Shown piece after piece: positions 737-54,300 of a stretch of 64,000 nt of DNA; position 1 is the stretch's first letter, and each line of letters opens with the position of its first letter. Below the pieces are notes generated by a model. It searched no databases and was not told the DNA's origin. It saw only the letters and a list, made by a program, of their open reading frames with translations. The DNA comes from Atrina japonica (Eukaryota > Mollusca > Bivalvia > Pterioida > Pinnidae): positions 482,001 through 546,000 of the forward strand of contig BROG01000292.1 of assembly GCA_030159075.1 (NCBI GenBank). Direction: 5' to 3'. The position numbers and the translations under genes were made by a program.

Positions 737-883
737 ATATTATAAACATAATACCAAAGTTACAATCTCAAAACGATTGTTTATGTCAATTAGACTTCAT
801 CAGTTGAACAATTTAAAATGTCTATGTATCTTCTAAAGAGAAAGTGATATCATACAGGTCAAATAATAAATCTAAAAGTATAG
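737..883 (-). repeat. Retrozyme-like monomer fragment, nested in Naiad relic
   Basis: Matches the array monomer of 44.5-46.0 kb from its first bases (TATTATAAACATAATACC) through the ribozyme region to the AAGTATAG block. On the minus strand the CTGATGA core survives near 795-801, but the stem I strands and the stem III side have changed, so it is a degenerate ribozyme. Its ends fall inside Naiad sequence, so it arrived later than the Naiad. Confidence 0.7.
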
Positions 884-1041
884 ACGGTACACGTAGACGG
901 GAACTATACACCAAACGATATGTGGGTTTTCCTATTGTCAGCTTTCCACATTTAATAAGTAATATCCCTTATTCGTCTGTATATGGTGTTTATACATCAC
1001 ATATATATTAGATCGTGGAAAACAGATGAACATTGCTTATA

Positions 1042-8800: not shown

Positions 8801-9059
8801 GGTTAGCGAGATTTATGGCATGCAGTATTTTGCACGCAATTGGGGATATATAATGCTTGGTAATGCGTTTGGCGGATTAGCTATTCAAGAAATATTTGGA
8901 TGGATTTATGATAGCAGTATTGATATCAAAGGGTCAACAGACTGTACAGGTCTGCATTGCTTTACGTGGAGCTTTATATTGGCCACAGTGTTAAGTTTGT
9001 GTTCTGTGATCTTTAATTTAGGTCTACTTCAGGGGAAAATTGATGAGAAGAAGAATTGA
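5848..9059 (+). CDS. NFD4-like/nodulin-like MFS transporter, gene A (3 exons)
   Basis: Membrane transporter of the major facilitator superfamily; substrate unknown. Coding exons are 5848-5989, 6229-6435 and 8056-9059, with GT-AG introns in phase 1, giving 450 residues. Residues 9-31 form TM1. Exon 2 carries the TM2-TM3 loop motif CERFGAR (69-75), an MFS motif-A form. A hydrophilic central loop (about 203-247) separates two six-helix halves; the second half has GFFSD (304-308) and the conserved CTGLHCF block near the C-terminus (413-419). These features resemble plant NFD4/nodulin-like proteins more than SLC16 or SLC43 members. The start ATG is the first in frame and is shared with gene B. Differs from gene B at roughly 3 percent of exon 3 residues. 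No stops or frameshifts. Family call is from remembered motifs and not from a search. Confidence 0.82.
6106..6134. repeat. Short (CT)n microsatellite in intron 1 of gene A
   Basis: Pyrimidine CT run upstream of the exon 2 acceptor; the same site in gene B has expanded to 35168-35224. Confidence 0.8.
6597..7660. repeat. 31-bp minisatellite in intron 2 of gene A
   Basis: Diverged copies of a unit around AGCATTGGTATCAGTCCTAC followed by CGTGTCATTTC. The same array occupies intron 2 of gene B, so it existed before the duplication. The plus-strand open frames over it arise because the unit has few stops, in all three frames since 31 is not a multiple of three. Confidence 0.9.
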
Positions 9060-12284: not shown

Positions 12285-15214
12285 ATGCATTTAATGGATA
12301 AAAAAGTACAAAAACATTACATACTGGATGGCACGGCGCCCAGTATAAAAAGGTGTCCTTCTGCGAAGTCTATCGGGAGCACAGACTCGCAGAGATTGTT
12401 TGGTGCTCCCCGGGTTGTCCTTCGGGACATTAATAATTTAACATTTGTACAGTCAAAAGATGACCAGTTATGGTATAAACATAATAATGCTTGTGTTCCC
12501 ATAAAAATTGTCAGATTCCACTTGACGACATTTTTGATAGTTCATTTTCAAAAAATATACCAACAATTTCTAAATGTTCTGTCAAAAATTGTAAAACATG
12601 TCATATATTAATAACGGATCAAGTGTTCACCAGCAATCTGACAAATAAGCATTATAACACCAGAAGCTGGGATCATCTAGACTGGAAATCATCTAACGTT
12701 GTTTACGGAATTGAGTGTACCTTGTGTGATTTGATTTATGTTGGCGAAACTAAGGGGCCCTTAAATAAAAGAGTATGTGGTCATCGATTCGAGATTAATA
12801 ATGGGGGTAACCAGATACTCTATCGACATTTCAACTCTCCTGACCATTCCATCTTGTCTATGAGAGTTCGTATAATTGAAAAAAATATACCACTGGATCA
12901 ACAATCCCACCTTGAGTACCCTCTTCCGTAGACAACGTGAAGAATTTTGTATTAAACAGCTTGGCACTGTATATCCCTATGGATGTAACGATAATATCCA
13001 AAGTGTAGGCAATCTATCAGGCCCACTGTGTAATTGTGTTAATGTGATGGAACTTTTTAATTCTAACGTAAGACGTAAACGAACATCGTTCGTACAACCG
13101 ACCCTACATACATGATGTCACTTTTTCATCTTTTTTACCTTACGTTAACAAAAAATTGGGTCTTCATCACATTCGCAGCAAACCTCAATAAACTTTTTCA
13201 AGAAGCAAGAATGAATCCCTACACGGATTCTTCAACCCCAGAATACATACTGAACTCCATTATAATGGACATCGCTTATCACAGACTGTTTAAGCCTGCA
13301 CGCGTTACATACGATGACTGTTCTGAACAGAAACGTCTTTTCTTTAAACTTAAATTCACAAATAAAGGCATAGACGCTTTAAAAATTGGCAATGTTCTAA
13401 ATCACAAAAAAGTTCAGTCCTGTATTCCACCATATTTTAAACTAAAGACCACGCCTTGCATTTCATATAGCTATACACCTAGCATAGCATCCAAGCTATT
13501 CAATTACAAACAGGTTTTGCAGTGCCTAGACATCAACCATCTTCTACACAACACTGTCACATGTCCATGTGCTTCATCTCCTTTCAAATACAATACTATC
13601 GGGCATGTCATTACCGGCGACGTTTCTTTTGTTGAAAATAAAAGCCTCAAAAATCTTATTTTAAGGGGCCCTAAATACCGGGAAGCCCGTTCCTTTAATT
13701 GGCGTCAGAATTTTAGTTTAGTTATGGATTCTGTCGAAGATTAAGCCAGACGATGGGCCAAACATGAAGACGTAGAACCAGACACTTTGTCTGAATGGCT
13801 GAAAGCCATACGGTGGTTGATAAAATCTCGTATTCGAAAACTTATAAACTTATTTAATGATCCAGAAGTAGTAACTGAACTGGATAGGTTACATGACCAA
13901 TATGTACTGGTACCAGCAGACAAAGCCTCAAATAATATAGTTTTTATTTGTAAGGCACATTACTATAATTGTTTATTAGAATAACTTGGGTTTAATACGA
14001 ATTCCGGAAATCCTACATACACACGTAGCTCACTTTCAAAGGACGAAATCCTTCAAAATCACGTGTCCGTATTACGTTCATTTGATATACCTACAACGGA
14101 TACCGATTTCGAGCTACCACATTTATACTGGATACCTAAACTTCATAAAACCCCATATAAGCAAAGATACATAGCAGGATCCAGCAAATGTTCTACCAAA
14201 CCTTTATCTTTACTCCTTACCAAGATATTGACAGCCATTAAGGAGAAACTTCAACAATACTGTACAGTTGCTTATTCCAGAAGCGGTGTAAATCAGATGT
14301 GGATACTTAAAAATTCTAAACAGCTTTTAGAAAATTTGAAGGCACACAATTTTTCTCGAATTCATAGTATCAAAACTTATGACTTGTCTACTCTTTACAC
14401 TACTATTCCACATACAAAATTAAAAGAAAGACTTTTCAGCATCATAGACAACTGCTTTTTCACTAAAGGTGGTACCCGAAAATTTAAATATCTACTGATT
14501 GGCTATCAGGATACTTATTTCGTCAAACACCACTCTGATTCTACACATAAATACACTGAAGTTGATATAAAAAACATGCTGGAATTTCTAATAGACAATA
14601 TATTTGAAATGTTCGGAGACGTGGTCTTTCAACAAACTATCGGCATTCCTATGGGAACCAATTATGCTCCTTTATTGGCCGACCTGTTCCTTTATTCATA
14701 CGAAGCAGACTTCATTCAGAAACTGCTGATTCAAAATAAGAAAAAGTTAGCGGTGTCCTTTAATTTGACATTTAGATATATCGACGACGTTTTGTCAATT
14801 AATAATGACAATTTTCATACATATGTCAATGGGATATATCCCAGCGAACTAGAAATTAAAGATACAACAGAATCAAGCACACACGCTTCATAATTAGACA
14901 TTTTACTTAAAATAAACACAGACGGGAAATTAGCAACTAAGCTATACGATAAACGCGACGATTTCGACATTCCCATTGTAAATTTTCCAAATTTATGTAG
15001 TAATATCCCTCAGTCACCCGCATATGGAGTTTATATTTCACAAATGATCCGATATGCCAGGGCGTGCACAACATATGAAGATTTCATATACAGAGGTAAA
15101 CTACTCACTGACAAATTATTGACACAGGGATATCGAACACCGCGTTTAATGTCAACGTTCCGCAAATTTTACGGTCGGTATAATAGTTTGCGAGTACTCT
15201 GTTTCACTAAGTGA
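12285..15214 (+). pseudogene. Naiad-type PLE polyprotein (GIY-YIG ahead of RT), inactive
   Basis: Order along the strand is a zinc-binding cysteine cluster CSVKNCKTC (12575-12601), a GIY-YIG endonuclease with a CxxC inside the GIY-YIG linker (YGIECTLCDLIYVGET, about 12704-12751), then a long linker, then reverse transcriptase: WIPKLHKTPY (about 14132), YDLSTLY (about 14378), GIPMGTN (about 14642) and YIDD (about 14777), and a C-terminal FRKFYGRY block (about 15155). Known Penelope elements usually have the endonuclease after the RT; the reverse order seen here defines the Naiad/Chlamys group. Frame changes occur near 12500, 12900 and 13110. From 13112 one frame continues with three in-frame stops (13742, 13982, 14891), each a single-base change judged from sister copies. 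It is not active. Confidence 0.88.
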
Positions 15215-15324: not shown

Positions 15325-15475
15325 TGACCGGTCGACAGAGGATGCTTACTCCTCCATGGCACCTGATCCCATCTCTTGGTTTCCAGAGGTCCGTGTTTGT
15401 CCATTTTTACCGGATTTGTATCTATGTCCTGGACATTCTATTGATTTATACTTTGGTATCTGAAATTTTTATATT
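15325..15475 (+). repeat. 3' pseudo-LTR of Naiad copy A
   Basis: Direct repeat partner of 12066-12216. It follows about 100 bases of 3' UTR after the end of the coding part. Solo or truncated relatives occur at 16053, 27863, 29030, 3583 and 63700. Confidence 0.85.
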
Positions 15476-15592
15476 CTTATTTCATGACATAAGTTTCACA
15501 GGTGTCGCCGTGGTTTAGTTTTTTTTTAAATATGTATTTTATTGTATACTGAGTTGTCGGAGTTTATATATTATATTTGTTTTTTACATTCC

Positions 15593-21500: not shown

Positions 21501-21697
21501 ACTAGACCACTACCACTAGACCACTACCACCAGACTGCTACCACTATTATTAGAGTACTACCTCTAGACCAGTACTACTAGACCACTACCACTAGACCAC
21601 TACCACCAGACTGCTACCACTACTATTAGAGTACTACCTCTAGACAAGTACTACTAGACCACTACCACTAGCATCACTAACACTAGACCACTACCAC
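18576..21697. repeat. CCACTA satellite block, about 3.1 kb
   Basis: Tandem units based on the 14-mer GACCACTACCACTA with variants (ACTACTTCCACTAGA, ATTACTACAACCACTTG). Higher-order repeats are visible: a segment of roughly 120 bases recurs several times between 18900 and 19330, one of about 110 between 19900 and 20300, and an AGAGTACTACCTCTAGACCA group between 21050 and 21640. A second, more diverged block lies at 41085-41855. TAG stops are frequent and there are no ORFs. Confidence 0.95.
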
Positions 21698-22016: not shown

Positions 22017-22143
22017 TTGTTTAACCTTGTGTTATACCACTTTCTCTTTAGGAAGATCTTTTATAAATGAGAACTCAACTGAAGCAGATTAGCTGACCGA
22101 AACGATCGTCTCGAGCATTACAACTTTGGTATTATGTTTATAA
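22017..22143 (+). repeat. Degenerate retrozyme-like monomer
   Basis: Aligns to the 3' half of the array monomer (CCTTGTGTTATACCACTTTC... to ACTTTGGTATTATGTTTATAATA). The ribozyme region 22072-22117 has CTGAAGC where CTGATGA is needed, while GAAACGATCGTC is kept, so it is probably inactive. It stands in front of a transporter pseudogene, as does the copy at 42.1 kb. Confidence 0.7.
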
Positions 22144-22144
22144 T

Positions 22145-22560
22145 ATTTTGAGTTATGGATACTTTTAGAGGGTAAGACCCGATATATCTCAACAGTGACC
22201 AGAAGCTATGGATAGAAAATAGAAGACATTCAAGTATTTGATAAAACTTTAACAAAAGGATGACGCACGCATGCATATATCTGTGGTGATACGACATTTA
22301 GATTTTTGCTATCTTAATATGTTCGCCCTTTAATATATTTCTTGTGCCAGCGATATTCATTATTATTCAGTATTCATACTGTGTTGTATTGACCTTGTAA
22401 TATGAGAACCGAACTAATTTGAATTGTTCTCGTGAACACTCCTGGTGTGTCATTTAATATGAAATATGGACAAATTTAAACAGGATAATAAATAAAAATT
22501 CAGTTACGAATAGTATAATCGCTAATAAACCCAGATGTCCAAGTATAAATGCATTAAACA
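22145..22560. repeat. Block repeated at 42.23-42.64 and 43.26-43.52 kb
   Basis: Shared features include the AGTGACCAGAA segment, TTTGCTATxxTxATATG, ATATATTTCTTxTGCCAGCGAT and a TGCCATTTAATATGAAATAT-like stretch. In two of three cases it sits just beyond the 3' end of a transporter pseudogene, so it is best read as old 3' flank of that gene lineage, duplicated with it. Confidence 0.65.
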
Positions 22561-23366: not shown

Positions 23367-23549
23367 TCATATTTTTACAGTGGTTACTCTTTGACGGATT
23401 TTGGCTGTATGTTTAGATTTATTATTTGACCTTGTCTGATACCACTTTTTCATGAGAAAATCTGTTTAAAATTGGAGCTCACCTGATGAAGTCTAGTTGA
23501 CAGAAACGATCGTTTTGAGCGTTATAACTTTGGCATTATGTTTATAATA
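23367..23549 (+). repeat. Retrozyme-like monomer (partial)
   Basis: Begins in the ACAGTGGTTACTCTT block of the array monomer and ends at TTTATAATAC. Contains a nearly complete hammerhead at 23477-23520. Confidence 0.8.
23477..23520 (+). ncRNA. Hammerhead ribozyme motif, near-complete
   Basis: Stem I GCTCA(C) pairs with (T)TGAGC; core CTGATGA; stem II loop GTC-TAGTT-GAC; GAAA; stem III ACG/CGT with a very short loop; cleavage triplet GTT instead of GTC. The short stem III loop suggests it would work, if at all, as a dimer. Confidence 0.7.
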
Positions 23550-29848: not shown

Positions 29849-32800
29849 ATGGATATTTCAACCATCAGTCGAATAGCTGCGTTAGTCGTTGGTTGTATGG
29901 GTATGTCAACTGCAGGTTCTACCATAGCATTTGGAGCATACATCAATGCCATAAAAAAGCATTTTAATTACACACAGTCAGCAGGTAAGTCTCACTGGAG
30001 TTAATATGAAAATACAGTTTTTGTAAGCAAACGTTCATTGTTCTTGTAATATCTGGTGATTAAACCACAGAGGCTCTAGTGAGCCTTAGAAACAACAGAA
30101 CACGTCCAGGGTGATTAACGTGTATTCTAAAGATGGCTGCTTAGCCACGAGGTACAGATGGGAGGTAACTCTAATGCACAAACTACATTTACATATGTAT
30201 TAATATGCGAGCCTTATTAAAGTCAATTATATCACATCCCTCTTACTGAAAAATATTAAATTCTGTGGATGAAGTATTGAACACTTTGTAAATAAAGTCA
30301 CTTATATTATAACAAACTTAAGTGTCGCTTATAATAGTATAATACTATATCAGACTTTTGGAAACAAATCAAGACTCTAGTTCTGACAGTTGCACGGGGA
30401 TTATTGTGCCCTTTACACAGTGCATACTGCTAAACTAAGCAAATACAGTTAAACACAGAACTCTTGTTCTGACAGTTGCACAGGGATTATTGTGTCCTTT
30501 CACAGTGCTTCTGTTAAATTAAACATAAGCATATCTACTTGAATTCTAGTTTCACAAGGTCCATGTAATTACTAGATGTAAATTATTGTAGCTTGTTTAA
30601 ATATCAAGTCTGTCTGGTTTGATTATAACACGTCCTGATCTGGTTCGTATGGGTTTCTGTACAGAAAGTGTTTGTTCTCCTTAGATGGTTCTGGTATACT
30701 ATCGTTCTCCGATCTTACAGTTTCATCAAACCGAGGCTCCTCATTATCATGTATAGTCTCTCCTGTTTTTTGTAAGTGAACACTATTCCTACGGTATAAT
30801 TTCCCATTGCTTTTTACTATATACGATCTAGGTTTCTCTGTTTTACTAACTACAAATCCTGGTGATAGTGATTTAGTTCCTGGTGTTTTCATTCGTATAA
30901 TGGTACCTTCCCGAAGGGGGGGGGGCAATTCTGTTATCATAATGGAATTTTTGTTTCCTTCTCTGTATATTTATTTGTTGTTTCACTTTACGAGTGCCAT
31001 GTCCTATTGGTTTCAACACATCCTGTGATGATGGTAAAGAGTTTCTTGGTCTACGTCCCATTAACAGTTGAGCTGGTGATAGACTGAGGTTCTGTAATGG
31101 GGTCGTACGATTATCAAGCAGCGCAAACTGTTTATCATCACACTTTGTCCATAAATGTTTCACTGTTTGCACTGCTCTCTCTGCCTTTCCGTTGGAACTT
31201 TGAAAATAAGGGCTGGTCCTTTCATTTCTTATTCCGTTCGCTGTACAGAAGTCCTTAAATAGTGCTGAGCTGTATTGTAGCCCATTATCTAACCGAAGCA
31301 CAGACGGGACACCATGACATGCTAATGCCGTTTTCATAGCGTTTATGATAGCTTTAGTATTCTCTGAATGAAGCTCTATAGCATCTATGTATTTGGAGTA
31401 GTAATCAACAGGAATAATGTATTTCTTGCTGTCAAACTAAAGAATATAATTCCCTGCATGACTGTAAGGTAAGTCTGATGCTGGTGTTGGTTGAAGTGGT
31501 TCACTATTTTGCTTCTTCTGGTATTCTGCACACTTGGAACAACTATTGACGTTTTCAGTATTCATACATGGCCAGTACATGACTTCCCTACCCAGAATTT
31601 TGGATTTAAAAATCCCAAGATGAGACTTGTGTATAAGAGTTAGCATTCCTTTAATCACACTAGGTGGAATTACTATCCTGCTGCCCTTGTATATACTACT
31701 ATCGAGAACAGAGAGTTGGTCTCTTGAATCAAAATATGACCTTACTTCAAATGGTTTCGTTCCGGGTATCCGGTCATCCTGATTGTATCGTTTCCATCAG
31801 AATATCCAGTTCAGCTGCTGTGGCTGTCAGAATTTCAGTGTATTTATCAGACGTTATAGATAGCATACCGATCAGGTTTAATCTCTCATTTTCCTCATCT
31901 TTCTGGTCCTGTATATAAGCTCTAGATAAGATATCTGATATATACATCAGTTTTCCTTTACGGTAGATAATATGTATGTCATACCACTGTAGTTCGATCA
32001 TCATCCTTTGAATTCTCATTGGTGCGGCCAGTAAAGGTTTCTTGAATATGATCTCAAGTGGTTTATGATCACTATAAATTCTCACTTAATTATGAAATTT
32101 CTGACAACTGTACACTATATCTGTGTTTATATTAAGTAAAATGTCTAAGTATGAAGCGTGTGTCCTTGATTCTGTTGTATCTTTAATTTCTAGATCGCTG
32201 GGATATATCGCATTGACATATGTATGAAAATTGTCATTATTAATTGACAAAACGTCGTCGATATATCTAAATGTCAAATTAAAAGAAACCGCTAACTTTT
32301 TCTTCTTTTGATTCAGCAGTTTCTGAATGAAGTCTGCTTCGTATGAATAAAGGAACAGGTTGGCCTATAAAGGAGCACAATTGGTTCCCATAGGAATGCC
32401 GACAGTTTGTTGAAAGACCACGTCTCCGAATATTACAAATATATTGCCTATTAGAAATTCCAGCATGTTTTTTTTATATCAAATTCAGTATATTTATGTG
32501 TAGAATCAGAGTGGTGTTTGACGAAATAAGTATTCTGATAGCCAATCACTAGATATTTAAATTTTCGGGTACCACCTTTAGTGAAAAAGCAGTTGTCTAT
32601 GATGCTGAAAAGTCTTTCTTTTAATTTTGTATGTGGAATAGTAGTGTAAAGAGTAGACAAGTCATACGTTTTGATACTGTGAATTCGAGAAAAATTGTGT
32701 GCCTTCAAATTTTCTAAAAGCTGTTTAGAATTTTTAAGTATCCACATCTGATTTACACCGCTTCTGGAATAAACAACTGTACGGTATTGTTGAAGTTTCT

Positions 32801-35162
32801 CCTTAATGGCTGTCAATATCTTGGTAAGGAGTAAAGATAAAGGTTTGGTAGAACATTTGCTGGATCCTGCTATGTATCTTTGCTTATATGGGGTTTTATG
32901 AAGTTTAGGTATCCAGTATAAATGTGGTAGCTCGAAATCGGTATCAGTTGTAGGTATATCAAATGAGCGTAATACGGACACGTGATTTTGAAGGATCTCG
33001 TCCTTTGAAAGTGAGCTACGTGTGTATGTAGGATTTCCAGAATTCGTATTAAAACCAAGTTCTTCTAATAAACAATTATAGTAATGTGCCTTACAAATAA
33101 AAACTATATTATTTGAGGCTTTGTCTGCTGGTACCAGTACATATTGGTCATGTAACCTATCCAGTTTAGTTACTACTTCTGGATCATTAAATACAGAGGG
33201 ATAACGTGTTTTCACAGTCCCTTTAAGTTTTCGAATACGAGATAACTTATTCTATAGTTTTCATGGGATGGTGTTCCCTCTTGATTGCTTTATTTAGATC
33301 CCTAGGGTCTATACAAATTCTCAGTTTGTCTCTTTTTAGACTGACAGCCATACAGCTGACCCATTCTGTAGACTTATCAACATTTGTGATATATCCATTG
33401 ATTTCCATCTCCTGTAATTTCTCTATCGCTCTTGGCTTGACTGCAGCTGGCAGTTTTCTTACTGGGTGAACAACTTCTTGTACTGAGTCATCAATGCTGA
33501 GACTGTAACGTTACTGTGGTTTTCGCTAGATCGTGAAAATCTCTACAGAGTTCATTTTCCACATTTACTGCTCCACATGGATTTAACACTGTCGACACTT
33601 GTGTGTGCTGCTGTAATGGGACTTCTATAAGTCCTAGTCCCATTGCTGAGTCACCACTGATAATATTCTCCTGCTGTAAGTCTACAACTTCAAAATGAAT
33701 ATTAGTCTCATGTTTGCCATGTTTCACTGGTAGTCTTACACATCCTACTGGTGTGATCTTATGGTTACTGAATGACTTCAGAGTTTTATTTGATTTTTCT
33801 AGTTGACATCCTTTCAGGTTTCTGACCTGGTTTAAAGTTAAGATACTGGTCTTTGCCCCATTGTCTTTTATACATAGAACTGTTTGGCTTGCTATGTTAA
33901 CGGGATTTACCCACGTGTCCTCCTGTACAGAACTAATAGAATATTGAGAATATGTTGAGTCAACATTTACTACTGTGCTGATAGTGAGAAGATTGTCATC
34001 CTGTATCTCCATATCTGAATCAGACTCGGGTCTACATGAACACTATTAACTTTCTTGTTTTTAAGCCTTTTGTGACACACTTTCTTCCAATGATTATACT
34101 TTTTACAATAGTTACACTTTGTTCCCCAAGCTGGACAACTTCCATGTTTGTGCTGAGTACCACAATTCTTACAAGTTACTTGTATGTTGTTTGCGTGTAA
34201 ATTACGGTGACCACGAATTGTTGACCTATGACCTGAAGTCTGAGTGGTGTCTGCCACTTTCCGACTCTTATGACCGTTAGATTTGTTCACATGTGATATT
34301 TTCATTATCTCTTCTCCTCCCATAAATTCAACCTGAGCTTGGGATAATTCAAATTGTTGGCCTATTTCGATAGCTTTGTTAAGTTTTACATCCTGACCTT
34401 GTTCGAGAAGTCTTTTTTTAACTTTCTTATGACGAACGCCAAAAATAATTGGGTCAATGAGCACATCGTCACGATCTGCATAATCGCAATCCATTTTGAA
34501 TCTTTAAATCTTTAACAAAATTATCAAAGGTTTCTGACTCGTTTTGCGTTCTCTGGTGTAACTTGAATCTAGCCAGCTTATTTTTCTTGGGACGTACGTA
34601 ATTTTCAAGTTCTTCAAGTATATTATCAGGCTTCTCCTCTTCGTCATTTTCAAATTGTAAAGTTTTTAAAACTTCCCTACACTTTGTCCTATCCAGAGGG
34701 CAATCCAACCTGCTTTAGTTTTGTTATCGGCTTTAGCGAGTGGTGCTCTAAACATGAATCCCACATGTTGTTGAAATCTTTGCCACTCCTGATACAAATC
34801 ACCTGCAGCCCAGTCTAGTAGCGGGTGTTCGAATGGTATCGTCGACAAGGTTCCTATCCGTTATCTTCTGACACTATGTAATATCTGGTGATTAAACCAC
34901 AGAGGCACTGGTGAGCCTTAGAAACAAAAGAACACGCCCAGTGTGATTAACGTGTATTTAAAAGATGGCTGCTCAGCCACGAGGTACAGATAAGGGGGGT
35001 AAATCCCATGTACAAACAAAGGGAAATAACTGTATTTACATATTTGAGTTTGATTAAAGTCAAATATATTACAGTTCTGAACTTTCTTTTTGGTTCTTTC
35101 TTTATGGCTCTGTCACTATCAGTGTCACTTTATGTTTCAACATCTCTCCTCTTTCCCTCTGT

Positions 35163-35229
<67 letters not shown>

Positions 35230-38200
35230 TACATGTATAACTACGTTTGTGAAACTGTACACAAAAGAAGTAAACATAATTTGAAACATAGTAACACTGA
35301 ATCTGTGCTCTTTTTTGTAGTTGAACTGATGGGATCAATGTCTAATTTTGGGATTTCACTTGGTTTCCCTGCTGGAATGATGTGTGAACGATTTGGTGCA
35401 AGATGGACATCTTTGGTAGCTCTTCTAATTGCTGCACTTGGATTTATGCTATTGTACAGTACAACATTAATGCAGACATATTACCACTCCAAGGCATGGC
35501 TGCAGTATATTTACTTTTTCATTTCCGGTAAGAATAAGTCTGGCAAGTATCATCTGACAAAATAGTATATATCTGAACCATTTGTCAGTTTGACTGGAGT
35601 AATGTAAATAATAGTTATCTTCATAATGTTATTTCTACGACATGTACTACATTTGGAGGTGTCATTTCACCACTGGTAATAGACTTATTGTGACATTTCA
35701 TTATTGGTATTAATCCTACCATGTTATGTCAACATTGATATTAGTCTTACCATGTTAAGTCAGCATTGGTATTAGTCTTACCGCGTTATGTCAACATTGG
35801 TATTAATCTTACCATGTTAAGTCAGCATTGGTATTAGTCTTACCGTGTCATGTCAGCATCGGTATTAGTCTTACCGCGTTATGTCAATATTGGTATTAGT
35901 CTTACCATGTTAAGTCAGCATTGGTATTAGTCTTACCGTGTTATGTCAACATTGGTATTAGTCTTACCATGTTGTGTCAGCATTGGTATTAGTCTTACCG
36001 TGTTATGTCAGCATTGGTATTAGTCTTACCGTGTTATGTCAACATTTGTATTAGTCTTACCATGTTGTGTCAGCATTAATATAAGTTTAACCGTGTTATG
36101 TCAGCATTGGTATTAGTCTTACCGTGTTATGTCAGCATTGGTATTAGTCTTACCGTGTTATGTCAACATTTGTATTAGTCTTACCATGTTGTGTCAGCAT
36201 TGATATTAGTCTTACCGTGTTATTTCAACATTGGTATTAGTTTTACCGTGTTATGTCAGCATTTGCATCAGTCCTACCGTATAATATCATCATTGGCATT
36301 AGCTCTGCCGTGTTTTCAGCATTGGTATTAATCTTACTCTGCCATTACATAATTGGTATCAGTCTTAATTTGTCATTTAGGCATTGGTGTAGGCCCTACT
36401 TTGTAATGTCAGCATTGGTATCAGTCCTACAGTGTCATTTCAGTACTACTGTAACATTACGGCATTGGTATCAGTCCTACCGTGTCATTTCAGTACTACT
36501 GTAACATTACGGCATTGGTATCAGTCCTACCGTGTCATGTCAGCATTGGTATCAGTCCTACCGTGTCATGTCAGCATTGGTATCAGTCCTACCGTGTCTT
36601 GTCAGCATTGGTATCATTCCTACCATATCATTTCAGCATTTGTATCAGTCCTACCATATCATTTCAGCATCGGTATCGGTTGTGCCGTGTCAGTCATACC
36701 GTGTAATGTTAGCAGTGGTGTCAATCATACTGTACCTTTTCAGGATTGATATGGATACTACAGTGTCATTGCAGAATTGGTATCTGTGCTACCAAGGCAT
36801 TAAACATTGGTATCAGGCATACCGTGACATTACGACATTGGTATCAGTCCTACCGTTCCATTTCAGTGCTGAGTCCTAAAGTGTAAAGTTAGCATTGGTG
36901 TCAGTCCAACCGTGTCACGTCAGCATTGGTGTCAGTTCATCTGTGTTATGTCAGCATTGGTATCAATCTTACCGTGTCATATCAGCATTGATATCAGTTC
37001 CACAGCATCATTTTAGCATCATTATCAGTTGTGCCGTGTCATTTAAGTATTTGTGTCAGTCATATCGTGTCATGTTAGCATTGGTGTCAATACTACTGTA
37101 CATTTTCAGGATTGGTATGAATACTACCGTGTCATTGCAGAATTTGTATCAGTTCTACCAGGTCATTAAAACATTGGTATCAGTCCTACCAAGTCATTAA
37201 ACATTGGTATCAGTCCTACCAAGTCATTAAACATTGGTATCAGTCCTACCAAGTCATTAAACATTGGTATCAGTCCTACCAAGTCATTGCAGAATTAGTA
37301 TCAGTCCTACCAAGTCATTAAACATTGGTATCAGTCCTACCAAGTCATTAAACATTGGTATCAGTCCTACCAAGTCATTGCAGAATTAGTATCAGTCCTA
37401 CTAAGTCATTAAACATTGGTATCAGTCCTACTGTGTCATTATTATCAGTTCTACCAGGTTATTTAACATTGATGTGTCATTTCAGCACTGAATCCCACCG
37501 TGTCATGTTAGCATTTGTATCAGTGCTACAATGCCATTACAGCACTGGTATTAGAAGCATCATTTTGTATGTCTCAATATATTTAGGTCACGAAAACAGT
37601 ATCTAAAATCTAAATAGAAGTATAACAGCCTATAAAAGATAGCTTCATGTGTAGTTATTGTAAATATAATAGTATAACAGCTGTAAAAGACAGCTTCATA
37701 CGTAGTTGATATAAATCATCTTTTTATTTTTCAGGATTTGGTGCTAATTTTATGTATATGGCCAGTCTAAGGACGGGTATGAACAATTTTCACCCTAAGC
37801 ATAGAGGAAAAGTCGTGGCTCTTTTGGATGCCTCCTTCAGTGCGGGACCTGCATTGTTTGCATCACTATATGGGACGGTGTATGTGAAAGGACACACAAA
37901 AGACGAGCAAAATCAAAATCTTGGTGGTTTTTATTTTATGTCCGCTATTGTTTTCGTTGTATCTGGGTTCCTTGGGATGTTTTTCTTACGAGAAGTTTCG
38001 ATTGATGTTAGTGAAATGGATGATGAAATAAATGTTCAAGCAAATAACTACAGTGGCATCGAAAACAGCAATAATCTACCTGTAAATTCAAAGAGAGTAT
38101 CCGTAACAGGAAAACAGTTATTTTTCCGTTTCGATTTTCACTACCTTTTCTGGTGCTTTATATTCTGTGCAGGACTTCAACTGATGTTTCAAAACAACCA

Positions 38201-38738
38201 GGGAACGTATCTAAAGTCATATGATTTAGAGAACTATACAACTTTTTTCACAACAATGAATCCTATAGCAGGGGTTGTGTCCAAATTGTTCGCTGGATTT
38301 TTTTCCGATGCTATCGTGGAAAAAGTACCTAGATCAGCTGTATTGCTGGGGTTTAACACGATTCAAACTATCATTTTGTTGATTTCAGTCTTTTTCGCAA
38401 ATAACATGACTGTTTTTACGATTTTAGACATCATAATCGGACTTGCAAATGGGGCACTTTGGTGTTTAACGCCAACAATGGTTAGCGAGATTTATGGCAT
38501 GCAGTATTTTGCACGCAATTGGGGGTGTATAATGCTTGGTAATGCGTTTGGTGGATTAGTTATTCAAGAAATATTTGGATGGATTTATGATAGCAGTATT
38601 GATATCAAAGGGTCAACAGACTGTACAGGTCTGCATTGTTTTACATGGAGCTTTATAATGGCGACAGTGTTAAGTATGTGTTCTGTGATTTTTAACTTAG
38701 GTTTACTTCAGGGGAAAATTGATGAGAAGAAGAACTGA
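29849..38738 (+). CDS. NFD4-like/nodulin-like MFS transporter, gene B (3 exons)
   Basis: Paralogue of gene A, same architecture. Exons 29849-29984, 35321-35527 and 37735-38738, all with GT-AG introns in phase 1; 448 residues. It is two residues shorter than A because one DI pair of the N-terminus (MDIDIST versus MDIST) is missing. The motif-A segment CERFGAR and the C-terminal CTGLHCF block are intact. About a dozen substitutions separate exon 3 from that of A, mostly conservative and in membrane segments. Intron 1 is 5.3 kb, against 239 bp in A, because of the gypsy insertion at 30045-35073. The splice sites are untouched, so the gene could still be expressed, though the antisense LTR element may disturb transcription. 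Substrate unknown. Confidence 0.82.
30045..30236 (-). repeat. 3' LTR of the gypsy element
   Basis: 192 bp, about 90 percent like the other LTR by eye, preceded on minus by the polypurine tract. Confidence 0.9.
30623..31436 (-). pseudogene. Gypsy integrase core and C-terminus
   Basis: The core shows SVLRLDNGLQYSS and NERTSPYFQSSNGKAERAVQ, giving the second Asp and the Glu of the DDE triad, followed by LLMGRRPRNSLP. An overlapping frame (30623-30940) carries the basic C-terminal part ending in YRRNSVHLQKT. Two frames are needed, so at least one frameshift is present. Confidence 0.85.
31437..31760 (-). pseudogene. Gypsy integrase zinc-binding N-terminus
   Basis: HKSHLGIFKSK, YWPCMN and CSKCAEYQKK show the HHCC-type zinc finger of Ty3 integrases. 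It ends in a stop near 31437, before the core domain. Confidence 0.8.
31774..32085 (-). pseudogene. Gypsy RNase H, C-terminal half
   Basis: YSDHKPLEIIF, RIQRMMIELQWYD and YISDILSRAY are the last conserved RNase H blocks. The N-terminal half and the RT palm are missing; Naiad sequence starts at 32086. Confidence 0.85.
32086..33245 (-). mobile_element. Naiad RT fragment inside the gypsy element
   Basis: Minus-strand RT region closely matching 13.8-14.9 kb: VLVPADKASNNIVF, WIPKLHKTPY, YDLSTLY, then a frameshift near 32455 and YIDDVLSINN near 32260. It keeps residues between RIRKL and FNDPEV (32.2-33.24 kb) that the 13.8-kb copy has lost. Both ends abut gypsy sequence, with about 750 bp of gypsy RT and RNase H coding sequence missing at the junction. 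No target-site duplication was found. Confidence 0.88.
33246..33490 (-). pseudogene. Gypsy RT N-terminal segment
   Basis: Minus reading: KPRAIEKLQEMEINGYI, STEWVSCMAVSLK, LRICIDPRDLNKAIKREHHP. This is the start of a Ty3 RT; it stops right after, at the Naiad junction (TIE then a stop). Confidence 0.85.
33491..34012 (-). pseudogene. Gypsy protease
   Basis: VLCIKDNGAKTSIL carries DNGA where aspartic proteases usually have DSGA or DTGA. It is followed by the ENIISGDSAMGLGLI block typical of these proteases. One long frame is open. Confidence 0.75.
34013..34870 (-). pseudogene. Gypsy gag with zinc knuckle
   Basis: Three overlapping frames: the N-terminal part (WQRFQQHVGFMF), a capsid-like part (KLARFKLHQRTQNESETFDN, then RDDVLIDPIIFGVR) and a nucleocapsid part with CKNCGTQHKHGSC and CNYCKKYNHWKKVCH. 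At least two frameshifts separate them. Confidence 0.82.
34877..35073 (-). repeat. 5' LTR of the gypsy element
   Basis: 197 bp. On minus the sequence just after it, TAGTGTCAGAAG, is the place for a primer-binding site; I cannot assign a tRNA. Confidence 0.9.
35168..35224. repeat. (CT)n microsatellite in intron 1 of gene B
   Basis: About 27 CT units upstream of the exon 2 acceptor, expanded relative to gene A (6106-6134). Confidence 0.95.
35655..37560. repeat. 31-bp minisatellite in intron 2 of gene B
   Basis: Copies of CAGCATTGGTATCAGTCCTA plus CCGTGTCATGT, exact period 31 at 36541-36572. Sub-blocks have homogenised locally: a TTAGTCTTACC variant at 35700-36240 and an AAGTCATTAAACATT variant at 37150-37420. 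Twice the length of the array in gene A. Confidence 0.95.
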
Positions 38739-41084: not shown

Positions 41085-41855
41085 TCACGCTACTTTTACC
41101 ACTTCACCACTACCACGAGACATCTACCACTATACCACTGCTACCATTAGACCACTACCACTTGAACACTACCACACAACCACTACCAATAAACCACTAC
41201 CAGAAGACCACTATCTACTATACCACTGACACTAAACCACTACCACTAGACCAGTGCCTCTAGATCACGACCAATACCAGAAAACAATTATCACAAAACA
41301 ACTACCAGTAGACCACTACTACTACACCTACTCCACTAGACCACTACCAATACCACCAGACAACTACTATGTTACAACTACCACGAGACCACAACCACTA
41401 GACCACAATCACTAGACCATTACCACAACTACCACTAGACAAGGAACACGAGACCACTGCCACTACACCACTACAATTAAATACCTACCACCACAGCTAA
41501 ACAACTACCACTAGACAACTGCCACTAGGTACCTACCACGAGACTATTGTTACCATTAGACCATTATCACTACCACTAGGCTTTTACACCTAGACCACTA
41601 TCATTAGACCACTAGCACTCGACCACTACCACGAGCATCTACCACTAGATCAAAATCATGAGACAACTATCACTAGACCACCAATAGCGTAAAACAACTA
41701 CCACTAGACTACTGCCTCTACCATTAGACTACTACCAAGAGGCCACTTCCACTAGACCACTACCACTAAACCACTACCAATACAACTAGACCACTAACAC
41801 TAGACCATTACCACTAGACTACTACCACTTGACCACTATCACTAGATCACTGTAG
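41085..41855. repeat. Second CCACTA satellite block
   Basis: Same motif as 18576-21697 (CCACTACCACTAGA with variants), more diverged and without visible higher-order units. Confidence 0.92.
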
Positions 41856-42076: not shown

Positions 42077-42231
42077 CGGGATTTACTATACTTTTGGATT
42101 TGTTAATTGGTCTTGTGTGAAACCCATTTAACGTCAGAAAATGTGCATCTTTATAAACTAGAACTGATGAAGTCTAATTAACAGAAATGATCGTCCCAAG
42201 CATTATATCTTTGGTATTATGTTTACAATAT
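42077..42231 (+). repeat. Degenerate retrozyme-like monomer
   Basis: Aligns from the ATACTTTTxGA block to TTTGGTATTATGTTTACAAT. CTGATGAAGTCTAATTAACA is kept at 42163-42182, but GAAAT replaces GAAAC and the stem I strands (CTAGAA / CCAAGC) no longer pair, so it is inactive by inspection. Confidence 0.75.
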
Positions 42232-42640
42232 TTCAAATCATGGAAACTCTTAGGAGAGTAAGACCTGTTATATCACAAAACAGTGACCAGAACTTCAGTA
42301 CTGAAATCTAGAAAATATTAGTGTATTTGATAAAAGGTTTGAAATGTTTGGCGCGCGTTCGTGAACCCGGGGCAGATTGAAAATTTAATACAACTATGTA
42401 CATTTTGTAGTAATTCCATTTAATAACTCATTTGTACTGTTAAAAGCATCTAGATATTTGCTATTGTGATATGATCGACCTTCAATATATTTCTTTTGCC
42501 AGCGATAACCAGTGTTCACTTTGTGTTATCTTAATCACGTGGAATCAGACCCAAACTAGTTTGATTGGATCTAGTTAAGCAAAGGTTATAATTCTGACCT
42601 CTCTTTATGATGTGCCATTTAATATGAAATATTTACAAAT
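42231..42640. repeat. Copy of the 22.15-22.56 kb block
   Basis: Same order of features as 22145-22560, including the AGTGACCAGAA and CCAGCGATAACCAGT segments. Confidence 0.65.
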
Positions 42641-44031: not shown

Positions 44032-44300
44032 TTAACAATGATTGATACATTGTGATATTGATCCATAGAAAACTAAAAAGTAAAGTAAATCAAAATGATA
44101 AGTACCAATTAATAATCGAAACTCAAGTCCATTAGAACACAACGAATTAGATGTGCAAATAGTCTTACATGAAGAACAATTGCGAATCCCAAATGAGATA
44201 GGACCAGGTGTCCGGAAGGAGTCAGCGCACTCTGCTGGCATGCAACATCCGATGCAAATGTTCCATGGGAACCTTTCTAGTTCGATGAACGGGTCAAATG
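44032..44300 (-). mobile_element. Divergent PLE 3' end (copy of 16.57-16.97 kb)
   Basis: Reverse complement matches 16780-16972, including CGTTCATCGAACTAGAAAGG and the CTCCTTCCGGACACCTGGT block. Only the 3' UTR/pseudo-LTR-like part is present. Confidence 0.55.
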
Positions 44301-44493
44301 TGGTGAAAATATAAATTATGAAATAATACCTCTTGATAAATTATTGCGACTCATTTGTTCAATAACCATTGGATACTTTGAACTGACTCAATACTACTAG
44401 GGTTATATTGTGTATATATATTTTGTTAATAATTACAAGTTATCAATAGATCATTATTAATCAATATTATAAACATAATACCAAAGTTATAAT

Positions 44494-44539
44494 GCTCAAG
44501 ACGATATCGTTTCTGTCAATTAGACTTCATCAGTTGAGC
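44494..44539 (-). ncRNA. Hammerhead ribozyme, array unit 1
   Basis: On minus: stem I GCTCAA paired with TTGAGC (6 bp); core CTGATGA; stem II GTC-TAATT-GAC; GAAA; stem III ACG-ATAT-CGT with tetraloop; cleavage triplet GTC just before TTGAGC. One A on each side at the base of stem II would face each other, where most hammerheads have a G-C pair. Confidence 0.85.
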
Positions 44540-44847
44540 TCCAATTTGAAATGTATGTGTATTTTCTAAAGATAAAGTAGTATCATACAAGGCCAATATC
44601 TCTAAAAGTATAGCCGAAATCCGTCTAAGAGTAACCACTGTAAAAACATGACTATCTTAGCTTTAGACAATTTTCTTATTGAAATAGTGTTAACAGTGCC
44701 AAATATTACTTGAGTATAAGATGAACAGCTGGTACCGAAATACCAGGTACTAGGTTTATGTATACCCTCGGGGACTCAAACGGTCCACCAGCAGTGGCAA
44801 CGACCTAGTGGTTATAAATATTATAAACATAATACCAAAGTTATAAT

Positions 44848-44893
44848 GCTCAAGACGATATCGTTTCTGTCAATTAGACTTCATCAGTTGAGC
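44848..44893 (-). ncRNA. Hammerhead ribozyme, array unit 2
   Basis: Identical to unit 1 over all 46 bases. Just outside it, about 12 bases (CCAATTTGAAA...) are deleted relative to the other units. Confidence 0.85.
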
Positions 44894-45191
44894 TATGTGT
44901 ATTTTCTAAAGATAAAGTGGTATAATACAAGGCCAAATAATATCTCTAAAAGTATAGCCGAAATCCGTCTAAGAGTAACCACTGTAAAAAAATGACTATC
45001 TTAGCTTTAGACAATTTTCTAATTTAAATAGTGTTAACAGTGCCAAATATTACTTTAGTATAAGATGAACAGCTGGTACCGAAATACCAGGTACTAGGTT
45101 AATGTATACCCTCGGGGACTCAAACGGTCCACCAACAGTGGCAACGACCTACTGGTTATAAATATTATAAACATAATACCAAAGTTATAAT

Positions 45192-45237
45192 GCTCAAGAC
45201 GATATCGTTTCTGTCAATTAGGCTTCATCAGTTGAGC
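45192..45237 (-). ncRNA. Hammerhead ribozyme, array unit 3
   Basis: As unit 1, with one change in stem II (GCC instead of GTC), which breaks the middle pair of an already short stem. Confidence 0.75.
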
Positions 45238-45548
45238 TCCAATTTGAAAAGTATGTGTATTTTCTAAAGATAAAGTGGTATCATACAAGGCCAAATAATA
45301 TCTCTAAAAGTATAGCCGAAATCCGTCTAAGAGTAACCACTGTAAAAAAATGACTATCTTAGCCTTAGACAATTTTCTAATTTAAATAGTGTTAACAGTG
45401 CCAAATATTACTTTAGTATAATATGAACAGCTGATACCGAAATGCCAGGTACTAGGTTTATGTATACCTCGGGGACTCAAACGGTCCACCAGCAGTGGCA
45501 ACGACCTAGTGGTTATAAATATTATAAACATAATACCAAAGTTATAAT

Positions 45549-45594
45549 GCTCAAGACGATATCGTTTCTGTCAATTAGACTTCATCAGTTGAGC
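45549..45594 (-). ncRNA. Hammerhead ribozyme, array unit 4
   Basis: Identical to unit 1 over all 46 bases. Confidence 0.85.
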
Positions 45595-45907
45595 TCCAAT
45601 TTGAAAAGTATGTGTATTTTCTAAAGATAAAGTGGTATCATACAAGGCCAAATAATATCTCTAAAAGTATAGCCGAAATCCGTCTAAGAGTAACCACTGT
45701 AAAAAAATTGACTATCTTAGCTTTAGACAATTTTCTAATTTAAATAGTGTTAACAGTGCCAAATATTACTTTAGTATAAGATGAACAGCTGGTACCGAAA
45801 TACCAGGTACTAGGTTTATGTATACCCTCGGGTACTCAAACGGTCCACCAGCAGTGGCAACGACCTAGTGGTTATAAATATTATAAACATAATACCAAAG
45901 TTATAAT

Positions 45908-45953
45908 GCTCAAGACGATATTGTTTCTGTCAATTAGACTTCATCAGTTGAGC
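45908..45953 (-). ncRNA. Hammerhead ribozyme, array unit 5
   Basis: As unit 1, with one change in stem III (CAATATCG instead of CGATATCG) that costs a pair. Confidence 0.75.
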
Positions 45954-46023
45954 TCCAGTTTGAAAAGTATGTGTATTTTCTAAGATAAAGTGGTATCATA
46001 CAAGGCCAAATAATATCTCTAAA

Positions 46024-46849
46024 TCAACAAACAAATTATTACCAAGAATTAACGTCATCACCATTCTATGTTAGTAAGTTTTCATGTTTATATGAAATGA
46101 GATGAGTAACAAGACAATTAGCAGTAATAGGCCTATGTTTGTAAGAATATTGCGGAAAAAATATGGATGTGAATTCCGTTTTAAATACTCCATATAGACC
46201 TTTGTTTTGTTTATGGAAAGTTTAGTTATTAGTTTCGTGACACACTCAACATTATTACTAGAGTCTATTAGTACATGTATTAGTTTTCCCTTTTACTCAC
46301 TTCAGAAGGCCTTGTTTATCAATCTCCTTTCCCAAGAAATGTAAATTATCATATAAACTGGTATAGTTTCCGCAATAAAATCGTATGTTTATCGGTAGTT
46401 TCTGTTGAGGCGTCGAGGACATTCGGTGGGAAGCATACCCACGACGTTTCAGTAGAAATCAGTTAATTGTTTGTCTGTCACGGAATTCATCAAGTCCGCT
46501 ATGGATTTCCTGCGTTATCTTTAATACAACGACTTCCTGACAATAAGTGAATAATGATAATCGCCAGCTCGGCACTTTTAGAACTTGAAAAGTGAGTGTT
46601 TTACTTATCATACATGCATGTCATACATGGTTACACTACTTAATGATAATTTTTTTTGTATCTATTTAGAAACGATAGCGCAGGCACCCATAAAATAGTT
46701 CAAGATTATTGTTCTCCGTAAAATACGATAGAAGGGGCGATCGGTCTGATCTATTAGATCTGTTTATTTACTTATTTTACACTCTTTATATAACAATGAT
46801 CCCAGACCTAGCCCAACGCCGTTTAATCCATCTTGAATAATGTGGTCCA
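46024..46849. other. Spacer, nothing recognised
   Basis: No exon or known repeat recognised. Confidence 0.4.
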
Positions 46850-51323: not shown

Positions 51324-54300
51324 TTATTTGCTTAAATTATCTAAGACAAAGTTGTCGTCTGACTTACACAGATTATAAGTGTCCTGATCCGGGTTAAGTT
51401 GACGCTTCCTATTTAATACGTCACGATACAAAAGTGCTAGTGTCAAAAACACACTGAAAAAACTCAGACTACCACAAATTACAAAACTCCAAGTGAAACA
51501 ATGTAAACCGTAGCAATCATTTGTTTTGGTTCCAGACACACCATTCTCGTAGATCCATCCGAATATTCCCTGAAGGACCATTATCCACATCCCTAAACCG
51601 ATCATAAAAGAACCAAAATTTCTTGCAAAATATATCATCCCATAGGATTCACTAAGTATGGTCGAAGTCAACGATGATATCACTCCATCTCCAAATCCCA
51701 TAGTTAGAATTAAAATTATCAAAACAATCAAATTGTAGGAGAAAAATATTGCTGCAATAAAGACAAATGTTTGAACAATGCACATAACGAGAATAAACAC
51801 AGAACGCGAAACATGGCTCAAAAGAGCATCAGACAAAACTCCAACAACTAAACCGGAAATGATTCCTGGCAATGACGACATAGTCGATAAAATAGTTGTA
51901 TACTTTTCAAAGCCAAAAGACTTTATACATACTACCTGGTTGTTAAGTATCGTCATTTGAGATCCTGAGGCGAATAAACAAGCCCAAAAAAGACATTGAA
52001 AATCTAACCGACGTATTAAATTTAACCCAGTGACATTGTCACATGGTGTGTTGTCATCCGAGATAAGTGCTGTTGCTTCTGTACATTCACCGTTGTCCGT
52101 CACGGTATATTCTCTCAAGAAGAAAACACAGAAAAGACCAACGATGACAAAAACTATAGCCATCATAATATAAAAACCGCCCAAGTTTTGTTCTTCTACG
52201 TTATGATTCTGATCCCCAACGAAAGCTGTTCCAAACAATAGAGAAAATATTGCCGGTCCGGACATATAACAGGAATTAAATAATCCAACTGCTTTTGCAC
52301 GGTGCCTGGAACTTATATTATCTATTCCGATTCTAACACATGGTATAGCCATACAAACGGAGCCAAACCCTGAAATAAAGATACAATATATCAACTAAAA
52401 AATAAATGATTTCGTATACCTCTATAGGATGCTTACTTATCCAAGACAGCTGATCAACTAAAATATACATGCTTTTGTATAACCTCTATAGGATGCTTAC
52501 TTATCCAAGACAGCTGATCAACTAAAATATACATGCTTTTGTATAACCTCTATAGGATGCTTACTTATCCAAGACAGCTGATCAACTAAAATATACATGC
52601 TTTTGTATAACCTCTATAGGATGCTTACTTATCAAAGACAGCTTATATCACCTTTGAATTTTCTGGATGTCCGTGCCCAACGTTCACCAGATTTGTATAT
52701 AGTCTCTTGGTCCACCTGGCGGTTATTTATTCGGTGTCTGTGCATTTTATACCGTTATTCTGTTTTCTTGTAATTTATTTAACACTGAAATTTTCAACTG
52801 TGAAATTTGGTATTTTAAAGATCATAGGGCAGTGTGTCCGTAGTTTGGCATTCTATGAGTCATATTTCTGGGTTTTACACTTATGATCGTATAATATTTC
52901 CCCACAGACACAGTCAAAGTATACATTGAGTAGGAGGTTGCTGTACATTACAATCGAAATTGTAAATATATGTGAACATTATCATAAAAATCAAGCATGT
53001 TTTCATCACACTAATACTAAAATACGTTTATATTTGGCACTGATTCTACCAACTTTCTCTTTAGAATTCAAAACTTTTCTGATGAAGCTAATTGATAGTC
53101 AGCATTTTTATTAGTGGCTGCTGGTAGACCGTTTCGGCTAAACTAGTTCAGAGATATTGTTTGGCCTTGTATTAACCATTTAAATTCACCACAATGTTCT
53201 CTTTAGAAAATACACATAACTTTTAAATTGGAGCTCAACTGATGAAGTCTAATTGACAGAAACGATATCGTCTTGAGCATTATAACTTTGGTATTATGTT
53301 TATAATAACTAGATAACATATCTGCGATACAAAAATAATTTCCGTCCTTCAGAAGTATTGTGGTATATCTTACTTGCTTTTAAAATGTCATTTTTCAATT
53401 AGATTTAACCACGATACATTTTTACCTTTATCGCGCTAATGTAAAATTCATATGGGTTAAGCGGTCAATTCATCTTTTGTTTCACCCTCGCTGGGGTGGG
53501 TAAACTGTCTTGACGGCTGCCGCATGAATAAAATAGTGCCCGTGGTTTACAGCTTAAACTGTGTTCACAATTTCAAAATGGATCTTTTTAAAATGAGTCT
53601 CAATTGTTTCTAAACATTCAGGACTTCATTATGTTTGCGTATATTATCTTGTTATGTTTTGGTTTTATTATTCGTACAAGCAATTGTCGATGTTTGTTGT
53701 TTTTAGAGGTAAATGGATGCACAGGACACTCTTGTTCATTTGTTTTGTTTGGACCCCCGTTGACTTATAAACTGCGTCCTCGTGTACATCTTCTCGTGAC
53801 GATTAATGACCTAAAAAAATTTTGAAAATGCTCTGTTAGATATTACGCTATATAAACTTTCGGTATCATTGCTTCATAGTGGACATAATGAAGTAAACAT
53901 TAGAAGCAGTGTACTTCACTGATAAGAAACTTGCGGTAGTCTTTGGAGATAGGAAATTCGGGAAAATATTAAATAGACAAGCACAAATATGTGTATAATC
54001 GGACATCGTTGAATTGTGTCACAATGAAATGATATGCATTAATGTTTTCGATTTCATATCAATAATATTTCGTTGTGCGTGCTCTTAATAGCAATACTGA
54101 TTTTTATATTCACTGTGTTAATTTTTTCTGCAATTTATAGAAAAAAAAACATTTGAAATATATAGATTATGTATCAGCCATATCTATGTTTTTGACTACT
54201 TACATCCAAAGTAGCTGTTTATCAAAAATATATAATTATACAAAAACCAAATTGAGATATCTGCGTACATTTGAAAACCACTACATACCTGAAAAAGCGA

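Follow-up and report, generated by a model that had tools for sequence, protein, structure and literature searches.

The 64-kb window analysed here (the whole stretch of 64,000 nucleotides from Atrina japonica, contig BROG01000292.1, positions 482,001 to 546,000) carries on its minus strand a tandem array of hammerhead-bearing units, and we assign this element, as a new member, to the non-LTR retrozymes of animals, whose published members we compared by their descriptions. We give a probability of roughly 70% to the reading that it spreads as a circular RNA reverse-transcribed from a preferred internal start, the enzyme most likely being an abundant PLE in which a GIY-YIG-like endonuclease stands before the reverse transcriptase (RT). 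An end point clustered inside the unit, a ribozyme conserved between arrays and a tail shared with this PLE make the spread of the retrozyme directly testable.

The array was delimited by TRF at 44463-46023 (period 358, 4.4 copies, matches 94%), in line with the tandem arrangement proposed in a first-pass annotation made from the letters alone. The count of five monomers given there has to be replaced by four full units, with five predicted cleavage sites and a part-unit at either end, while the repeat length of 344-359 bp agrees with the measured full units (Table 1), whose GC content is 0.337-0.350. The ends of the element do not coincide with a cleavage site: the minus-sense 3′ end lies 35 nt beyond one, at plus-strand position 44465. 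No stop-to-stop frame of at least 110 aa overlaps the array (44465..46021).

Table 1 Retrozyme and PLE features of the window (positions on the plus strand; 3′ ends of single copies are given as unit positions, position 1 being the first base past the cut)
Feature	Position	Strand	Remarks
Single truncated retrozyme copy	737..886	-	3′ end at 36
GIY-YIG-like frame of PLE	12488..12931	+	Pfam, below cut-off
RT frame of PLE, candidate helper	13985..14893	+	Pfam RVT_1, below cut-off
PLE 3′ tail	15450..15479	+	ACTTTGGTATCTGAAATTTTTATATT and following bases
Single truncated retrozyme copy	22017..22148	+	3′ end at 38
Single truncated retrozyme copy	23369..23549	+	3′ end at 35
Second copy of PLE RT region	32120..33193	-	DNA 97% identical
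Single truncated retrozyme copy	42086..42233	+	3′ end at 38
AATCAA direct repeat, left copy	44459..44464	.	candidate target-site duplication
Retrozyme array	44465..46021	-	4 full units and a part-unit at either end; 4.4 copies; GC 0.337
3′ tail beyond last cleavage site	44465..44499	-	35 nt; ends ACTTTGGTATTATGTTTATAATA
Hammerhead	44494..44539	-	every stem intact; predicted cut 44500/44499
Full unit 4	44500..44853	-	354 nt
Hammerhead	44848..44893	-	stems intact, outer stem I side lost (~15 nt); predicted cut 44854/44853
Full unit 3	44854..45197	-	344 nt; ~15 nt lost beside its hammerhead
Hammerhead	45192..45237	-	stem II C-A mismatch; predicted cut 45198/45197
Full unit 2	45198..45554	-	357 nt
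Hammerhead	45549..45594	-	every stem intact; predicted cut 45555/45554
Full unit 1, 5′-most in element sense	45555..45913	-	359 nt, cleavage site to cleavage site
Hammerhead	45908..45953	-	stem III A-C mismatch; predicted cut 45914/45913
AATCAA direct repeat, right copy	46022..46027	.	candidate target-site duplication
Single truncated retrozyme copy	53011..53307	+	intact hammerhead 53233-53278; 3′ end at 35

The five minus-strand type I hammerheads noticed in the first reading are present, complete or nearly so, each with a 6-bp stem I (GCUCAA/UUGAGC), CUGAUGA, GAAA, GUC and, after the cut, UUGAGC; all stems are retained in three of them. Across 40 loci of the family (see below) we collected 112 hammerhead instances, 75 of them exact and 88 with the core and all stems intact. 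In the commonest form, GCUCAA CUGAUGA A GUC UAAUU GAC A GAAA CGAUAUCG UC / UUGAGC, stem I has 6 bp, stem II has 3 bp over an A.A mismatch, and stem III has either four pairs around UA or three pairs and an AUAU loop, stem III and its loop together forming a perfect palindrome of 10 nt, ACGAUAUCGU. At the base of helix II (positions 10.1/11.1), 5/5 hammerheads of the array and 111/112 instances of the 40 loci have this A.A mismatch. A loose type I descriptor gave five matches in the window and two in 100 mononucleotide shuffles combined, and thus the hammerheads of the window are not chance occurrences. The Rfam hammerhead models, which had been suggested as a check, returned no match in the window at the gathering score or in 44300-46200 at E ≤ 10. 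Since at E ≤ 5 they also gave no hammerhead match in the retrozyme arrays L010 and L021 or in the hammerhead-like motif of a viral sequence described next, their silence says little and we read it as insensitivity of the models. The unit folded as a circle was no more structured than shuffles (z -0.24), and the isolated hammerhead has its energy minimum in a different structure; we therefore make no claim of a circle rich in internal pairing.

In a sequence from a viral collection (IMGVR_UViG_3300029319_000787, L001) we observed a 26-nt hammerhead core and helix II with the A.A mismatch identical to that of the retrozyme (ACTGATGAAGTCTAATTGACAGAAAC), at 683-708 on the minus strand, and a second such motif at 1093-1118. 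The motif at 683-708 is completed by a perfect 6-bp stem I (GTAATA/TATTAC) and a longer stem III of its own, and its likeness to the retrozyme hammerhead may be due to homology or convergence. The collection ‘phages’ contained no match to the retrozyme unit, and the contig collection genome_contigs none to the hammerhead core.

When the assembly (832,074,514 bases, 2347 contigs) was searched with one retrozyme unit, as had also been proposed, dispersed copies were indeed recovered: there were 3708 unconfirmed first-look candidates, the 40 that were scored gave 130 matches, and the arrays are spread over many contigs. Loci were fetched for the 130 matches, two of them (L002 and L003) were dropped as duplicates of the window array, and the copies were mapped on a circular unit numbered as in Table 1, yielding 40 arrays of at least 380 nt, from 1.1 to 9.5 units long, and 21 shorter pieces. 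Besides the array, the window itself holds five truncated single copies. Some hammerhead-bearing pieces are divergent (L018 3306-3348 and 4318-4432, L039 598-765, L009 351-382), their match stopping at position 9 or 353, and perhaps belong to older or sister families with a different tail.

The 3′ ends of the copies are clustered at a point inside the unit. In 35 of the 40 arrays the 3′ end falls at unit positions 33-47, where it follows ...ACTTTGGTATTATGTTTATAATA (last base = position 35) and a few AT-rich bases that may come from target or template; the other five arrays end at positions 63, 290, 4, 207 and 17. In the window, each of the five single copies has its end at 35-38, and eight of the 16 short pieces in other retrozyme loci have the common 3′ end, the other eight (70-96% identity) ending at 353, 349, 9, 9, 144, 349, 4 and 9, one of them truncated by the locus boundary. 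The 5′ ends are spread, with an excess at 208-355, and fall at 33-47 in two of the 40 arrays only. The query of the genome search started at the common 3′ end and therefore gives these ends an advantage among elements close to one unit in length; arrays of at least two units contain a whole unit in any phase and are thus free of this bias, and 14 of 18 such arrays have their 3′ end at 33-47 (the exceptions are L018, L023, L035 and L038). If a linear monomer were copied from its cut end, the copy would end at position 359; the common end therefore points to a start inside the RNA.

As judged from the genomic copies, the clustered 3′ ends, the scattered 5′ ends and the hammerhead kept between arrays favour spread through RNA. 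In the mechanism that we propose, a multi-unit minus-strand transcript would self-cleave at every one of its type I hammerheads, and the resulting units of ~358 nt would be circularized by an RNA ligase of the host, as inferred from the published retrozyme family. Reverse transcription, primed at an AT-rich target, would then begin at a preferred point ~35 nt beyond the cleavage junction and proceed round the circle over a distance ranging from part of a unit to over nine units, with no fixed stop, so that the 3′ end of a new array would be fixed and its 5′ end variable. The enzyme would most likely be supplied by the abundant PLE with GIY-YIG before the RT, the copies of which have a similar ACTTTGGTAT tail at their end.

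Pieces of this candidate helper lie in the window (Table 1). The PLE is very abundant: a genome search with its RT gave 35881 first-look candidates, and all 130 that were scored matched. The order of its domains, GIY-YIG endonuclease before RT, is indicated at the locus L064, where a frame of 710 aa covers the GIY-YIG and the beginning of the RT region, the remainder of which, with YIDD, follows after a stop; the Pfam GIY-YIG and RVT_1 matches are below the cut-offs. It resembles the Naiad-type PLEs, which reportedly have GIY-YIG before the RT, a CxC stretch and a very high copy number, as the candidate helper does. Naiad-type PLEs are not known to carry hammerheads, and the likeness to the retrozyme would thus reside in the tail, not in the ribozyme. 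A hammerhead search of 20 PLE loci of 3.9 kb gave one loose core match (L049), away from the tail.

The tail motif GATTTATACTTTGGTATCTGA, with up to four substitutions, was found in 18 of the 20 PLE loci, where it is followed as a rule by (A/G)ATTTTTATAT and then by unrelated sequence; the 3′ terminus of the retrozyme is CATTATAACTTTGGTATTATGTTTATAATA. Both tails have ACTTTGGTAT in common, 13-15 nt upstream of the end of the retrozyme and 15-16 nt upstream of that of the PLE, these distances varying with the assignment of the AT-rich junction. All 14 exact occurrences of ACTTTGGTAT in the window lie in such tails, eight in retrozyme and six in PLE tails. With slightly less than an even chance, animal retrozyme circles could be rolling-circle templates for the RT of a Naiad-type PLE that recognizes the shared 3′ tail and starts ~35 nt past the cleavage junction. 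If this is true, a helper would be found by its tail and not by a shared ribozyme, and the two elements would stand in a SINE-LINE-like relation with a circular template. In the open-licence literature we found no link of animal retrozymes to a particular PLE through a shared tail, and according to PMC7761336 no motif that would identify the retrozyme helper was known; a clustered 3′ end together with a tail common with one kind of PLE provides a candidate motif, testable in vitro.

The retrozyme could instead be moved by another enzyme, either a LINE or a canonical PLE bearing a hammerhead, the likeness of the tails then being due to chance or AT-rich convergence. Such an explanation, which we consider somewhat unlikely, is helped by the weakness of the tail similarity when it is unanchored (421 of 20000 dinucleotide shuffles reach its score), by a second RT family in the window at 60826-61251 (Pfam RVT_1 E=1.6e-18), and by PMC7229834, in the relevant passages of which both LINEs and PLEs are left open as mobilisers of retrozymes. 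However, the 10-mer ACTTTGGTAT stands at a similar distance from both ends, and an anchored run of at least 10 is reached by 75 of 127910 window 45-mers, a count that includes the tails; over both measures the significance of the tail likeness is moderate. The 10-mer also has no other use in the window; the comparison of tails covered those of the retrozyme and the PLE.

To compare units, we aligned 48 of them from arrays of at least 700 nt, units outside 300-400 nt being dropped, so that none was left from L017 and L024 and those of L021 and L040 were represented in part. Mean identity was 98.7% within arrays (57 pairs) and 97.0% between arrays (1071 pairs), the mean within arrays being higher than in any of 1000 label shuffles, and the nearest neighbour of a unit came from its own array in 39 of 46 cases. 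In the six arrays with at least four aligned units, the minority substitutions private to a single unit were 15/15 in the window, 3/3 in L010, 2/2 in L021, 7/8 in L018, 11/13 in L023 and 9/13 in L040. The likeness of units within an array would fit repeated copying of one circle, and crossing-over would also raise identity. In L040 (1435-4409) the 8.3 units include a repeated super-unit (spacings 358, 357, 507, 357, 357, 506 and 343), showing that some later rearrangement happens.

Substitutions in the 46-nt hammerhead were compared with those at the other 312 positions in 15 arrays of at least two units. Among substitutions fixed in an array, none lies in the hammerhead and 45 lie elsewhere, whereas 18 private substitutions lie in the hammerhead and 85 elsewhere (Fisher p=0.0017); variants common to some units only number 2 and 10, respectively. 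When each variant was counted once, the fixed numbers were 0 and 35 and the private ones 16 and 81 (p=0.0064). The arrays had been picked by their overall likeness to one unit, a criterion that is not expected to be biased towards the hammerhead. With 0/45 fixed against 18/103 private substitutions, the hammerhead is preserved across insertions and later changes like its surroundings, and this contrast is genomic evidence, independent of RNA assays, that the ribozyme matters for spread.

These observations bear on a further alternative, in which the template is an uncut linear multi-unit RNA, the internal tail is where a PLE-like enzyme begins to copy this long transcript, and the hammerhead only trims the RNA. 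Fixed 3′ and variable 5′ ends would fit it equally well, and its main argument comes from the Anolis PLE, which starts internally and in vitro inserts with its hammerhead disabled, that is, without a need for hammerhead cleavage (PMC11167929, in part). We nevertheless regard it as quite improbable: the retention of the hammerhead between arrays would be unexpected if it were dispensable, and a linear copy would carry over the differences of its source units, unlike the young arrays L010 and L021, whose units are near-identical, with three and two minority substitutions, respectively, each in one unit.

At the target, the two flanks of 48 insertions share a longest match of 4.90 on average, compared with 3.98 in shuffled pairs (4.72 and 4.01 without the microsatellite loci L008 and L031), and with or without these two loci the observed sharing was reached by none of 1000 shuffles. 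The window array is flanked immediately on either side by the 6-bp repeat AATCAA; metazoan non-LTR retrozymes as a class are delimited by tandem units of ~170-400 bp and by target duplications that, when present, are >4 bp. L034 is inserted in a PLE copy, and its empty site is spanned by 40 alignments and reads CATT/GACAT among the matches listed (3), with TT duplicated. L033 has lost ~8 target bases, and L036 shows no clear duplication. That we are dealing with an ordinary satellite that grows by unequal crossing-over of DNA and keeps its hammerhead as a relic is hardly credible: the super-unit of L040 and variants common to several of its units indicate that such rearrangement occurs, but the arrays lie on many contigs, their 3′ ends are clustered while the 5′ ends scatter, the truncated single copies share the end point of the arrays, L034 has an empty site with a TT duplication, and the hammerhead is conserved between arrays.

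Eight of the 40 arrays lie inside PLE sequence or at most 100 nt from it, every one in inverse orientation. The flanks are in any case often made up of PLE sequence (at 1-1.4 kb from 39 arrays, 5-12% in inverse and 3-5% in the same orientation), so that, of this proximity, only the orientation is suggestive; an insertion preference near PLE sequence was rejected, as the flank background is already PLE-rich. Seen from the PLE, 22 loci (100,312 bases, without the duplicates L043 and L051) contained two retrozyme pieces, both divergent and neither with the common 3′ end.

The retrozyme reading given in the first-pass annotation is borne out by unit size, type I hammerhead, tandem layout, low GC (0.34) and dispersal, which match the description in the consulted parts of PMC7229834. 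According to the same source, the mussel Mytilus galloprovincialis has a retrozyme with repeats of ~350-390 bp that resembles ours in its type I hammerhead, tandem units of ~350 bp, low GC and many dispersed copies, and PLEs are present in the same genome. The axolotl HHR_Amex2, the hammerhead of which works better as a dimer, likewise combines a mismatch at the base of helix II with a short stem III and a unit of ~350 bp; its mismatch is U.U and ours A.A, and ours has the palindrome ACGAUAUCGU in stem III (PMC7229834, in part). What sets the present element apart from the metazoan retrozymes, as far as PMC7229834 describes them, is the clustering of 3′ ends past the cleavage site and the tail shared with a PLE, a difference between descriptions alone, so that both features may hold there too.

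An internal start on the retrozyme RNA would have a parallel in Poseidon, the PLE of Anolis carolinensis. As reported in sections of PMC11167929, Poseidon starts reverse transcription inside its RNA, downstream of the hammerhead cut site, the ends of its genomic copies coincide with these start sites, and its target is AT-rich, being cut at, or favouring, ATT. The element described here would thus be like Poseidon in its internal start past the hammerhead cut, in copies ending there and in an AT-rich target, whereas Poseidon encodes its own protein with a C-terminal endonuclease (PMC11167929, in part) and the present element is noncoding.

The window contains several other features. Long arrays of short ACTACCACTAGACC-like repeats occupy 18608-21697 and 41097-41851, and long arrays of 31-bp ATTGGTATCAGTCCTACCGTGTCATTTCAGC-like repeats occupy 35703-37439 and 6574-7519. 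An integrase-core (rve) frame at 30873-31436 (minus strand) comes from another retroelement, as does the second RT frame mentioned above (plus strand). Three similar transporter-like frames, at 8031-9059 (plus), 37710-38738 (plus) and 51324-52394 (minus), form a local gene family, the first and the last of them being matched by Pfam MFS_1.
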